From positions 38,479 to 84,911 of the forward strand of contig JAPLDG010000228.1 of assembly GCA_026391845.1 (NCBI GenBank): a stretch of 46,433 nucleotides of DNA, read 5' to 3'. The position numbers and the translations under genes were made by a program. Shown here in pieces: positions 40,122 to 46,433 of the stretch. Every line of letters starts with the position of its first letter. Positions within the stretch are counted from its first letter, which is position 1. Origin of the DNA: Bacteroidota bacterium. Lineage in GTDB: Bacteria; Bacteroidota; Bacteroidia; Bacteroidales; FEN-979. Below the pieces are notes generated by a model, which was not told the DNA's origin, searched no databases, and saw nothing but the letters and a program-made list of their open reading frames with translations.

Positions 40122-41027
40122 ATGGGTGCTTCAAATTTTACCGAAGGTGTTGATCTGGCCTTTAAGGTCATTTTCGGAATCAGCCTGTTTTTCCTAGTTG
40201 GAATTACAACGGTGATGCTCTATTTCGTTTACCGCTACAACAGGAAAAGGCATCCGCATGCTGTTCAGTTTAAAGACAATAACATCCTGGAAATCACTTG
40301 GATTACTATTCCATTAATCCTGGTATTGCTCATGTTTTATTATGGATACATCGCTTTCAGTCCACAGCGTATTGTTCCCAAAGATGCCATTCCCATTACG
40401 GTAATCGGCAAAATGTGGGTATGGACCTTTGAATACCAGGGTGGAAAACAGTCGCCTGTTCTGGTTGTTCCTATCAATAAAGCAGTTAAACTGAATCTTC
40501 ATTCCGATGATGTCATTCACAGCCTGTATATTCCCGCATTCCGGATCAAGGAAGATGTAGTCCCCGGCAAGAATAATTACATGTGGTTCATCGCCCAACA
40601 GCTTGGCGAATATGACGTGTTGTGTACCGTTTATTGCGGATTGCGGCACTCTTACATGGAAACCAAAACAAAAGTAGTCTCCGAGGCTGAATATGAAGCC
40701 TGGCTGAAAGCGTTGCCTGAGAAATCGAATGAGCCTGAGGGCCTGCTGATTTTGAAGAAAAATGCCTGTACCGGTTGCCATTCCATTGATGGTTCCAAAA
40801 TTGTAAGCGCATCTTTTAAAGGGCTTTATGGAAAGACGGAAAAAGTCGTCACCAATGGAACAGAACGCTCGGTCACTGTTGATGACGAATACCTCAAATC
40901 ATCTGTGTATGAACCTGATAAAGACCTGGTTGCAGGCTATCAGAAAGGCATCATGAAAACTTACAAAGGCATTGTATCTGAGGATGAAATGACCAAGGTC
41001 ATCGACTATTTAAAGAGTATCAAGTAA
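40122..41027 (+). CDS. ctaC: Cytochrome c oxidase subunit II with fused cytochrome c (caa3 type)
   Basis: CuA motif CTVYCGLRHSYM; C-terminal heme motif NACTGCHSIDGS. Confidence 0.94.
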   Translation: MGASNFTEGVDLAFKVIFGISLFFLVGITTVMLYFVYRYNRKRHPHAVQFKDNNILEITWITIPLILVLLMFYYGYIAFSPQRIVPKDAIPITVIGKMWVWTFEYQGGKQSPVLVVPINKAVKLNLHSDDVIHSLYIPAFRIKEDVVPGKNNYMWFIAQQLGEYDVLCTVYCGLRHSYMETKTKVVSEAEYEAWLKALPEKSNEPEGLLILKKNACTGCHSIDGSKIVSASFKGLYGKTEKVVTNGTERSVTVDDEYLKSSVYEPDKDLVAGYQKGIMKTYKGIVSEDEMTKVIDYLKSIK

Positions 41028-41041
41028 ATTACTGTTATCCT

Positions 41042-41908
41042 TTGCAAACCTCCGGCCTCCGCGTAATTTTTGTTTTAACAAGGTTTCCTGTTTCGCTGGC
41101 TGTTACCTTCACTGCTTTTGCAGCCCTGGTACTTAGCCCTGTTCACCTCAGCCTCTCATCCCTCATCCCGGTTGCCGGTATTTTCCTGCTGGCATCGGGG
41201 GCTTCAGCATTCAACCAATACCAGGAATGGCCTTATGATGAAAGAATGGAGCGTACGAAAAAACGACCGATCCCTTCACGCCGCATCACCACGGCAGAAG
41301 CGCTGAGATACGCCATGATGTTCATCATCGGAGGCATGCTGATCCTGCTCTATTATGCTCCGCCGGTCTGTTTTATCCTTGGATTCATCAATCTGATGTG
41401 GTACAATGGTATTTATACCTATTTGAAACGTAAAACAGCCTTTGCCGTCGTTCCGGGTGCCCTCACCGGAGCCATCCCGATATTCATGGGCTGGACAGCC
41501 GGGGGCGGGTCGCTGCTTGCCCCGGAAGTTCTGTTCCTGGCCTTTTTCCTGTTCATCTGGCAAATGCCCCATTTCTGGATGCTGACCCTGAAATATGGCC
41601 ACGAATACCGCAATGCCGGATTCCCTGTGCTGACCGATTTTTTTTCTGAATTTCAAATAAAAACCATTGTCATGGGATGGATGATCGCTTCATCAGGTGC
41701 CTCCATCATGCTGGTCTATTTTAAAATCCTTCATCTTCCTGCCTTCGGATTTACCATCATCGGCTTGAACATCGTATTACTGCTGCTGATGGCATATCAA
41801 CTGTTTTTTGCTTCAATCATGCGTTACCGCCTGATTTTCATTTCTGCAAACCTGTTCATGATGATCGTGATGCTTTCACTGATCGCCGACCGGTTTATCA
41901 TTGGCTGA
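41042..41908 (+). CDS. cyoE: Protoheme IX farnesyltransferase (heme O synthase), TTG start
   Basis: SAFNQYQEWPYDERMERTKKRPIPSRRIT, PIFMGWTAGGG, FLFIWQMPHFWMLTLKYGHEYRNAGFPVL. Confidence 0.9.
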   Translation: MQTSGLRVIFVLTRFPVSLAVTFTAFAALVLSPVHLSLSSLIPVAGIFLLASGASAFNQYQEWPYDERMERTKKRPIPSRRITTAEALRYAMMFIIGGMLILLYYAPPVCFILGFINLMWYNGIYTYLKRKTAFAVVPGALTGAIPIFMGWTAGGGSLLAPEVLFLAFFLFIWQMPHFWMLTLKYGHEYRNAGFPVLTDFFSEFQIKTIVMGWMIASSGASIMLVYFKILHLPAFGFTIIGLNIVLLLLMAYQLFFASIMRYRLIFISANLFMMIVMLSLIADRFIIG

Positions 41909-42486: not shown

Positions 42487-45400
42487 ATGTCTGAATTAAA
42501 ATCCCTGTTGGAAGATTGGAAAAGCCTGGATCATCCTGACCCGGATGGCAAACAGATTGCACTCAAAATTATTGAAGTATCAGAGAAGATTTGCAACAGC
42601 CACCAGGAAAATTCAGTTCCCCGGGACCTCTGGCTCCGCTTCCTTGACATCACCAAAAACCCTGCTTTTCTGCAGGCACTCGGCGACGAAAAAAGCCGTA
42701 AGAGATGGTCTGAAACCGTATTCCTGATCATCCAGCATACCAATTACAATCTCCGCGACATGATGGAACAGCGGGTATCCGAACATCCGCATCATGTTTT
42801 GTTTAAAGATATGTCATCGGCCACGGCGATCGACTGGACCTATGAACAAATTTACCGGCATCTCCGGGAGATAACCAGTGTGCTGTATCAAACCGCCGGA
42901 GCAGATCCAAGGGTTGCACTTTATACTGAAAACTGCCTGGAAGGGGCCTGCACAGACCTTGCCTGCCTGATGTTCGGCATCTTTGATACTCCGCTGAGCC
43001 CGCATTTCAAAATCGAGGTGCTGCTTCCCATTTTCGACGAGTTAAAGATAAACATTGCTTTGGCTGATACCGAAGAGCGGCTGATGGTCCTTCAGAAGAT
43101 CCGTGAAAGAGCAGCGATCAAATTCACCATTTTTTCATTGCAGGCAGTCACGCTTAAAACCCGCGACATTCCTTATCTGGTGGAGGAATGTAAAAAAATC
43201 TCCCGTTGGGATATGGATTTAATCCTTGATCGTCTGCCCGTTCATCCCAACAACCGGGTCGCAACAACCATGTTCACCTCAGGAAGTACCGGCCTTCCCA
43301 AAGGCGTTTCATTCTCGGCTTATAATATTGTTTCCAAACGGTTTGCCCGGGCTGCCGCATTACCACAGGTAGGCAATGAAGTATTTCTCTGTTATCTTCC
43401 TCTTTTTCATACTTTTGGCAGATACCTGGAGATGACCGGCGCCATTTTCTGGAACGGCACATACATATTTGCCGGCAATACTTCAGCGGAGACCCTGCTT
43501 TCATTGTTCCCAAAAATGAACCCTTCGGGATTTATCAGCATTCCGCTGCGCTGGCAGGAACTTTTTGAACGATGCCAGGAGAAGATCAGCCATGTTGAAA
43601 GTCCCGAACTCAAAGAGCAGGCTGTTCGCGAAGTCGTCGGTCTGCGATTGCATTGGGGCTTGTCGGCAGCCGGCTATCTTGATCCGGAGGTATTCAGATT
43701 TTTCAACCATTATGGAATCCATCTGAACAGCGGTTTTGGCATGACCGAGGCCACAGGGGGTATTACCATGACACCTCCCGGAATGTACCGGGATTTCACC
43801 GTCGGAACGCCTCTGCCAGGAGTACAAACCCGGCTCACGGAAAATTCGGAGCTCGAACTGAGCGGACACTATATTGGCCGTTACCTTGAAGCCGCCGGAC
43901 CTGACGATCTCATCCCATATCCTGTTTCTGCTGAAAAAGATGTGTGGCTTTCGACCGGCGATGTGTTTAAAATTTCAAAGGATGGATATTACCAGATTGT
44001 TGACCGGGTGAAGGATATCTATAAAAATAACCGTGGACAAACAGTTGCTCCTCAGGTCATTGAAAAGAAATTTTACAAGGTTCCGGGGATTCAGAATGTT
44101 TTCCTCGTAGGCGACAACCGCCCCTACAATGTATTGCTCATCGCCCCCGACAGATCCGACACCATTTTCAATGCTTTGCAAGGCAACAACACGAGCGAAT
44201 ATTTTCATCAGATCGTTATGGCGGCCAACAGCGATGTGGCTCCGTATGAAAGGGTGATCAATTTCGCACTTCTTGACCGGGATTTCAGCGCTGAAAAAGG
44301 CGAACTCACCCCGAAAGGTTCTTTTAACCGTAAAGCCATTGAAACCAATTTCAAGGATATTATTGAAGCGCTGTATCAAAGCTCCGTTGTGAAAATCGAT
44401 GCCGGTTCTTTTACAATATCCATCCCCAAATGGTTCTTCCGCGACCTGGGGATTCTGGAAACAGATATCCGTTATGAACAGCATCGATTGATCAACCGAC
44501 GCGATAAATCAACCCTGATTGTCCGTGCGTTGAAAGGGAAATGGTTTCAGATCGGCCACTTAAAATACCACATTGATTCTTCCAGCATCGACATGGGATT
44601 GATCGCCCGTCAGCCAAAAATATGGACCGGAAACCCTGCGATGATTGCCTTCTGTCCGGTTAAGGAGGGTTGGGACGTTCCCATGAAAAACATCTCGGCA
44701 AACGTTTACCTCCACACGTTTAAAAAGCTCGATGAAAAAAACTTCCCGGTTATAAAATCGATTCGCGATCAGCAGTTGATCGAGGTGAACTACCTTATCT
44801 TTCGAATGTTTTTCCGGGATTTGCATGAAGCGTTTCAGGCAACTGACGAACTTGGGAAAATTCTCATTCATGCCGAACCACGACTGGCGATTGTCATCAG
44901 GCACCGGTTGGAAGCGCTGGCTTATCACCCGGAGGAGGAGATTCGATGTCTCGCCTATCGGCTCATTCTGCTCAAGGCGCCGAATCCGGAAGATATTCAA
45001 AAAATGCCCTCTTTCATCGATTCCGGGCTCTCCTTTCTCAATGAAAAATCAATTCGGGAGATCGCCTCCAGCAATTTCGGGAAACACAGGCTTGATGCAC
45101 TTAAACAAAGGCTCTATTGGTACCGCACACGCCTGAGCTGGCCTGCTTCAAAAAAGCATCGGCAGGCATTCGGCGATGTGTTGGAGATGCTTTACAACTT
45201 TGCAGCGCTGCACCTTGAATATTATGTCCCGGTACGTGCTGAACTTTCACGCTGGATTCTTCACAAAGAAGATGCATCACTTTCAAAACTGGCGGAAAAA
45301 TATTTTTATTCACTGGCAGCTGTTTTCGAAAAAGAATTCGAAAAGAAGCCAACCCGTGAAAAGCTTTCCGGATGGAGATCAAAGCTGGTGTTTGAACACG

Positions 45401-46433
45401 GAATTTCGGACTCAGAAAAAAAACGCATCACCAAAATTTTTCATTCAACTACGTTCCTTAAAGAGAGTATTATTCTCACCTTTAATGAACGTGACTTTAA
45501 GTTGGAAGATGTTACCGACAAGGGGATTTGGATTTTGCGTTTGCTTGCGTTCAAAGAATTTAAACATTACAGGCTATCCATCAACACCACTGAAGGCAAG
45601 CATTTCGACCTTCACATGGTGCTGAGCGAGAATCCTGATTTCAGGCCCCGGCCGGAAACATTTTACTGGCTGGCTTCGCTGGCAGGGTTTCCCTATGGAC
45701 CCGCTGTGGCGCCGATGCTTGGAAGCAGCAGGCCAAACCTTGGGGTTCTGACAACACAATATATAGGGGGTTTGACCGCATGGGATAAAATCCGCGAGTT
45801 GTCTGAAATCCATCGTTCATCCGGTTTTATCCGGGGCAATGCCTGGAAAAAGATCTTTATCAAATCTTTTTCGGTTATCTTTAAAGCCTGGCATCACAGT
45901 GGTTACCAGATCGTTCCGGGAGCTATCTCCCCATCTAACGTGGCCATTCCGGAAATGGACTTCCGCGAAAGCGCCGTAATCTTATCCCTTGCCGGATGGT
46001 CTGCATATAAAAACACCCTATCGCTGGTAGAACCGATGCTCCAGGATTATTACTGCAAAACTGCCTCGATCTATCCCTGGTGCCGAAACCAACTCGAAGT
46101 TACCTGGATCTTTGATGCGTGCATTGAGGGTCTGGGGAAAGAAGAAGCCGTGAAATTCCTGAAAAAACTAAAGTCTGACCTCAGATCGAAATCACTGACT
46201 TGTTTTGATTCAACAGAGATGCTGTCGCATCTTGATGAGTACCTTGAAACTGCCATCAAACAATTCTATTTGCCGGTGGCCCTGTTCAGTGCCATAGATC
46301 AGTATCAGGACTGGTATAAAATGAATCCGCTCACAACCTGCGCCGCAAAAGAACAAACATGCATTGAATTGCTTGAACTTTATAAATTGCAGCACGATGC
46401 AGAACTGATTCGCTACTTCCTGTATCGGCATAC
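42487..46433 (+). CDS. Giant AMP-binding (ANL superfamily, acyl-CoA synthetase-like) protein with long C-terminal extension, 3' truncated by the window edge
   Basis: I translated frame 1 line by line: no stop from 42487 to 46433 (>=1315 codons). Motifs: FTSGSTGLPKGVSF, GMTEATGG, STGDVFKISKDGYYQIVDRVKDIYKNNRGQTVAPQVIE and KGELTPKGSFNRKAIE. The ~680 aa after the ANL domain match no family I can name. Confidence 0.88.
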   Translation, partial: MSELKSLLEDWKSLDHPDPDGKQIALKIIEVSEKICNSHQENSVPRDLWLRFLDITKNPAFLQALGDEKSRKRWSETVFLIIQHTNYNLRDMMEQRVSEHPHHVLFKDMSSATAIDWTYEQIYRHLREITSVLYQTAGADPRVALYTENCLEGACTDLACLMFGIFDTPLSPHFKIEVLLPIFDELKINIALADTEERLMVLQKIRERAAIKFTIFSLQAVTLKTRDIPYLVEECKKISRWDMDLILDRLPVHPNNRVATTMFTSGSTGLPKGVSFSAYNIVSKRFARAAALPQVGNEVFLCYLPLFHTFGRYLEMTGAIFWNGTYIFAGNTSAETLLSLFPKMNPSGFISIPLRWQELFERCQEKISHVESPELKEQAVREVVGLRLHWGLSAAGYLDPEVFRFFNHYGIHLNSGFGMTEATGGITMTPPGMYRDFTVGTPLPGVQTRLTENSELELSGHYIGRYLEAAGPDDLIPYPVSAEKDVWLSTGDVFKISKDGYYQIVDRVKDIYKNNRGQTVAPQVIEKKFYKVPGIQNVFLVGDNRPYNVLLIAPDRSDTIFNALQGNNTSEYFHQIVMAANSDVAPYERVINFALLDRDFSAEKGELTPKGSFNRKAIETNFKDIIEALYQSSVVKIDAGSFTISIPKWFFRDLGILETDIRYEQHRLINRRDKSTLIVRALKGKWFQIGHLKYHIDSSSIDMGLIARQPKIWTGNPAMIAFCPVKEGWDVPMKNISANVYLHTFKKLDEKNFPVIKSIRDQQLIEVNYLIFRMFFRDLHEAFQATDELGKILIHAEPRLAIVIRHRLEALAYHPEEEIRCLAYRLILLKAPNPEDIQKMPSFIDSGLSFLNEKSIREIASSNFGKHRLDALKQRLYWYRTRLSWPASKKHRQAFGDVLEMLYNFAALHLEYYVPVRAELSRWILHKEDASLSKLAEKYFYSLAAVFEKEFEKKPTREKLSGWRSKLVFEHGISDSEKKRITKIFHSTTFLKESIILTFNERDFKLEDVTDKGIWILRLLAFKEFKHYRLSINTTEGKHFDLHMVLSENPDFRPRPETFYWLASLAGFPYGPAVAPMLGSSRPNLGVLTTQYIGGLTAWDKIRELSEIHRSSGFIRGNAWKKIFIKSFSVIFKAWHHSGYQIVPGAISPSNVAIPEMDFRESAVILSLAGWSAYKNTLSLVEPMLQDYYCKTASIYPWCRNQLEVTWIFDACIEGLGKEEAVKFLKKLKSDLRSKSLTCFDSTEMLSHLDEYLETAIKQFYLPVALFSAIDQYQDWYKMNPLTTCAAKEQTCIELLELYKLQHDAELIRYFLYRH

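Follow-up and report, generated by a model that had tools for sequence, protein, structure and literature searches.

A giant fusion of ANL ligase-like, kinase-like and GNAT domains as a candidate regulator of the citrate cycle

The stretch of DNA analysed here (46,433 nucleotides, G000:C328:38479–84911, hereafter the window) ends within a gene for a giant protein, in which an ANL half resembling AMP-forming acyl-CoA ligases is followed by a small beta domain, a helical stretch, a predicted pseudokinase and a C-terminal GNAT domain. The whole protein lies outside annotated families, its parts being variants of known domains whose combination has no description in the libraries searched. Since the gene adjoins genes for citrate-cycle enzymes in two separate lineages, we propose that it encodes a probably undescribed regulator that acts post-translationally on the entry arm of the cycle, via lysine acylation by the GNAT domain, a tentative reading to which we give a probability of a little under 40%.

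An interrupted gene and its family

As the original prediction stated, a single frame is open from 42487 to the window edge, with 1,315 codons counted from an ATG, and a GTG located three codons 5' of it (42478) is an alternative start. The frame has no stop within the window, whose last base is also the last of contig C328 (84911), and it was missed by the ORF track because open-ended ORFs were skipped and this one reaches the contig end. The closest full-length reference, L003 (1,529 residues), is colinear with the frame and 83% identical to it, and the existence of such full-length homologues argues against a chance open frame: this is a genuine gene, interrupted by the assembly. The original prediction had sought the sequence to the right, and its distal part was found at the edge of another contig of the same genome, C223 (G000:C223:3263), as 110 codons that are 94% identical to L003; the GNAT end of the gene is followed there, 93 nt on and on the same strand, by icd, a complete gene for an NADP-dependent isocitrate dehydrogenase. 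The join between C328 and C223 is inferred from colinearity with the homologues, and residues 1316-1419 or so (about 104 codons) are absent from both contigs. The extension following the ligase-like part, first estimated at about 680 residues, thus amounts to about 890 and ends in the GNAT domain beyond the window.

One GTDB genome scan yielded 58 loci, the majority of which are colinear across the whole query; they come chiefly from Bacteroidales, Ignavibacteria, Calditrichota and Bradymonadales. The family is found in 80 or more genomes, and its complete members measure 1,513–1,711 residues. A single architecture prevails throughout, in the order ANL half, beta domain, helical stretch, pseudokinase and GNAT; the two halves, whose co-occurrence had been singled out for checking, are always found together, and the tail is of full length in all four taxa at about 20% identity. 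With a profile of the middle part, matches were obtained in 21 of 397 genomes sampled from the window's phylum, in 23 of 41 genomes of Calditrichota (the phylum of L052) and in 3 of 189 genomes of the phylum of L058, while among 290 genomes of the window's class only the window's own genome matched. Each complete match occupies one frame of 1,515–1,719 residues from stop to stop, the shorter ones lie nearly all at contig ends, and one family frame (L128) has an internal stop. In the same profile search, the middle part never occurred on its own in the sampled genomes. Neither a plasmid collection nor the PADLOC defence models gave a match, and the open-licence literature held no description of an ANL-GNAT fusion, of a pseudokinase/GNAT regulator or of the Melioribacter copy of the gene.

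Table 1. Features of the giant gene and its upstream neighbour, in window coordinates
Feature	Position	Strand	Basis or remark
Upstream neighbour, heme o synthase-like (cyoE/ctaB)	41042..41908	+	NCBIfam TIGR01473, under its cut-off
5' portion of giant gene	42487..46433	+	1,315 of about 1,530 codons; end of contig C328 cuts gene
ANL (AMP-forming acyl-CoA ligase-like) half, residues 1-640	42487..44406	+	Pfam AMP-binding and AMP-binding_C_3
A10 region GELTPKGSFNRKAIETNF	44299..44352	+	Ser in place of canonical A10 lysine; Lys two residues upstream
Small beta-rich domain, about residues 641-750	44407..44736	+	AlphaFold2 model of L003; boundaries approximate
Alpha-helical stretch, about residues 761-990	44767..45456	+	AlphaFold2 model
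Degenerate protein-kinase-like domain, about residues 1000-1293	45484..46365	+	AlphaFold2 and Foldseek, two distant members

Domains of the giant protein

Three domains are identified by Pfam in full-length members, namely, AMP-binding (PF00501), AMP-binding_C_3 (PF23562) and the C-terminal GNAT (PF00583), the first two covering residues 94-457 (E=6e-44) and 516-632 (E=7e-12) of the window frame. In line with the original prediction, no carrier-protein or reductase domain was detected by Pfam in the window frame or the full-length homologues. The ANL half resembles FadD/FAA1-type ligases, and the listed NCBIfam ligase models all score far under their cut-offs. With the FAA1/FadD15-type long-chain acyl-CoA synthetases (PF00501 plus PF23562), the giant protein has in common the N-terminal 640 residues and motifs A3, A5, A7 and A8, but it differs from them by a replaced A10 lysine and by its additional residues. 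Of the full set of ANL motifs initially claimed, the A3 P-loop, A5, A7 and A8 are indeed retained, a few members showing single-residue changes, whereas the A10-like lysine lies off its canonical place, TPKG[S/T] replacing TPTLK.

The A10 lysine is required for normal adenylation in ANL ligases. Short matches to the ANL half in the window's own genome include ordinary ligases, among them FAA1-type enzymes with the canonical motif, and two of these, which align with the family without gaps in this region, read GEITPTLKLKR and GEISPTLKLRR, with the canonical lysine present. The family consensus is GELTPKG[S/T]xxR[K/R]: the canonical position is occupied by Ser or Thr in all 48 aligned members, every one of which carries a lysine two residues upstream. 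The protein offers a natural case in which to probe ANL function without the standard adenylation residue.

The middle part, of about 745 residues, was matched by no Pfam or NCBIfam model, and comparison with PDB sequences gave nothing credible, whether a single sequence or a 48-member profile was used. The AlphaFold2 model of L003 residues 641–1388, built with 48 homologues (pLDDT 89.3, pTM 0.86), displays a small beta domain and a helical stretch, followed by a region with the strand and helix order of protein kinases. The HEAT-like spacing suggested for this part is weakly supported, by the modelled helical stretch and by a weak HEAT_2 match (E=3e-4) in one homologue, L058.

The corresponding kinase-like region of L060, an Ignavibacterial member about 20% identical to those from Bacteroidales, was modelled apart, from the same homologue set as L003, with a pLDDT of 90.7. 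When the models were submitted to Foldseek, as had been advised for the C-terminal half, the best 50 PDB matches of each model were almost all kinases or kinase-fold phosphotransferases, and the matches in a viral structure library were mostly ordinary protein kinases. The L060 model superposes on PRPK with a TM-score of 0.62 (normalised to PRPK) and an rmsd of 4.9 Å, pointing to an overall fold similar to that of Bud32/PRPK; in contrast to the latter, the giant protein lacks the catalytic Lys/Asp/Asp, shares 13-15% identity and gives no sequence-profile match. According to column counts over 48 members, no lysine stands at the beta3 Lys position, which is His in 37; the HRD aspartate is replaced by Ala, Ile, Asn and others, Asp occurring in just three; and the DFG position reads Ser/Thr, Leu/Phe, Thr/Ser/Ala. 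The loop Asn (43 of 48) and the Asp of the beta7–beta8 hairpin (46 of 48) are retained. Having a kinase fold in the models but none of the three catalytic residues (beta3 Lys, HRD Asp, DFG Asp), the domain is classed as a pseudokinase.

With regard to the C-terminal GNAT domain, PF00583 scores 37.4 bits in L003 against a cut-off of 20.7 and is also detected in L060, L058 and L052. Most members keep the acyl-CoA loop, as QGKGIA or RRKGIS, together with an upstream acidic residue. By sequence, the nearest solved structure is the GCN5 histone lysine acetyltransferase, at a weak E=7e-4, and the domain's score against the NCBIfam Pat model falls well short of the cut-off. The likeness to GCN5 and the conserved loop would thus permit, rather than prove, lysine acetylation.

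Linkage to citrate-cycle genes and its interpretation

The original prediction pointed to possible PEP/pyruvate or kinase genes in the vicinity. None was seen; the recurrent neighbours encode citrate synthase, aconitase and isocitrate dehydrogenase, and the kinase-like part sits inside the giant protein and not in an adjoining gene. In Bacteroidales, icd lies downstream on the same strand at 25 loci, 15–223 nt away, and aconitase is divergent, 53–191 nt upstream, at 23 loci, in 18 of which citrate synthase adjoins aconitase. The window's branch has the giant gene between a cytochrome oxidase/heme o synthase cluster and icd, with citrate synthase and aconitase together on a separate contig, C103. 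In Ignavibacteria, citrate synthase stands directly 5' of the gene on the same strand, 18–390 nt away, at 15 loci, which include a few duplicates of the same genome.

In a FastTree phylogeny of 82 members, those linked to citrate-cycle genes fall into two clades, of 27 and 22 rows, between which are placed basal Bacteroidales, Calditrichota and Bradymonadales, whose loci show no such linkage. The gene order beside the giant gene differs between the Bacteroidales and Ignavibacteria clades, as do their citrate synthases, which fall into separate NCBIfam subfamilies, NF010635 and NF007128, and share 25% identity. Given the separate clades and the distinct citrate synthase subfamilies, the two linkages look independent rather than inherited as one pair.

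These features lend indirect support to one part of the original proposal of a multi-domain activating enzyme founding a new pathway or signalling system: the multi-domain nature is borne out, and the pseudokinase fold, the GNAT domain and the citrate-cycle linkage favour a regulatory role, but not a new pathway. In the mechanism that we consider, the GNAT domain would acylate lysines on citrate synthase, isocitrate dehydrogenase or both, probably with acetyl taken from acetyl-CoA. The ANL half, by way of a nucleotide or acyl-adenylate that it binds, and the pseudokinase might serve as metabolite sensor, for docking of the target or for supply of the donor. Pure sensing by the ANL half is disfavoured, as the ATP motifs are retained in nearly all members. 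Acetylation alters the activity of citrate synthase and isocitrate dehydrogenase from E. coli, and of the isocitrate dehydrogenase from M. tuberculosis (PMC11254643), which makes a GNAT-based regulator of the citrate node the most economical explanation. Adjacency of genes is no proof of a physical target, so that the citrate-cycle enzymes are candidates in this respect, and the target may be something else, given that Calditrichota, Bradymonadales and basal Bacteroidales are devoid of the linkage; the Calditrichota are the main weakness of the regulatory reading.

A conserved fusion of 1,500 residues beside citrate synthase or isocitrate dehydrogenase is a concrete candidate for control of citrate-cycle flux. 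Bacteroidota, Ignavibacteria and Calditrichota seem to lack well-studied citrate-cycle regulators such as AceK, the isocitrate dehydrogenase kinase/phosphatase. The giant protein resembles AceK in its kinase fold and its genetic link to the isocitrate node; unlike AceK, it lacks the catalytic residues, and a phosphatase function is not expected. Homology with AceK was considered and rejected, as the catalytic Asp is missing and no profile similarity was found in a comparison of low sensitivity with one AceK sequence. The PatZ/Pka-type protein acetyltransferases also fuse an acyl-CoA synthetase-like part to a GNAT domain. The giant protein shares with them this pairing in a single chain and, as proposed here, the control of central metabolism. 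However, PatZ has an NDP-forming synthetase fold and no kinase-like domain, whereas the ligase fused here is assigned to ANL by Pfam. A more elaborate version of the regulatory reading, which we regard as doubtful, is a self-contained device in which the modified ANL half would make or hold the acyl-adenylate or acyl-CoA and the pseudokinase would either dock the target or sense a citrate-cycle metabolite, leaving the GNAT domain to acylate both citrate synthase and isocitrate dehydrogenase. If true, the protein would correspond to AceK in function, with unrelated chemistry, in lineages around Bacteroidota.

The main rival is a biosynthetic enzyme, in which the acyl group of a carboxylic acid, once activated by the ANL half, would be passed by the GNAT domain to an amine on a lipid or small molecule; the pseudokinase would act as a scaffold, and the citrate-cycle neighbours would reflect only the supply of acetyl-CoA or 2-oxoglutarate. 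ANL and GNAT chemically form a complete activation-transfer pair, the ATP motifs A3, A5, A7 and A8 are conserved, and a lipid role also fits the presence of hpnC, hpnD and hpnE next to the gene in many Ignavibacteria. This possibility is nevertheless somewhat less likely than the regulatory reading, considering the absence of a carrier domain, the replacement throughout the family of the lysine needed in normal adenylation and the lack of a conserved biosynthetic cluster around the gene; furthermore, it leaves the recurrent linkage to citrate synthases of different families unexplained. The similarity of the ANL half to FadD/FAA1-type enzymes could also suggest an ordinary acyl-CoA ligase of fatty-acid use with an inconsequential accessory tail, which is improbable in view of the retention of the full-length tail across the four distant taxa, the absence of the A10 lysine from its canonical place and the FAA1-type ligases with the canonical motif already present in the same genome. 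Least probable of all is an unusually active kinase-like domain modifying isocitrate dehydrogenase, as AceK does, by phosphorylation or AMPylation: the kinase fold, the retained Asn and hairpin Asp and the position of icd as next gene in Bacteroidales would accord with it, but the three catalytic residues are gone, and AceK gives no profile match and falls outside the 50 best fold matches.

Other flanking genes

The cyoE/ctaB-like gene upstream of the giant gene in the window is the final gene of the cytochrome oxidase cluster and is considered to lie outside the system; the same cluster includes, at 40122-41027, a protein resembling cytochrome oxidase subunit II, whose C-terminal part bears a c-type heme motif (CTGCH). 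In Ignavibacteria, the squalene synthesis genes hpnC, hpnD and hpnE precede the giant gene and citrate synthase on the same strand at loci L055, L057, L053, L084 and L087, and likewise at L091, L092, L094, L098 and L099. The citrate synthase encoded beside the giant gene in Ignavibacteria (L055:8233-9549, L060:8222-9529) is a eukaryotic-type (Si) enzyme resembling NF007128/TIGR01793. In Calditrichota, the closest upstream gene is often not a citrate-cycle gene but one for a long protein of the surface type that contains LVIVD, Ig and PKD domains, as at L118:12846-16940, with similar genes in L119-L124 and L126.
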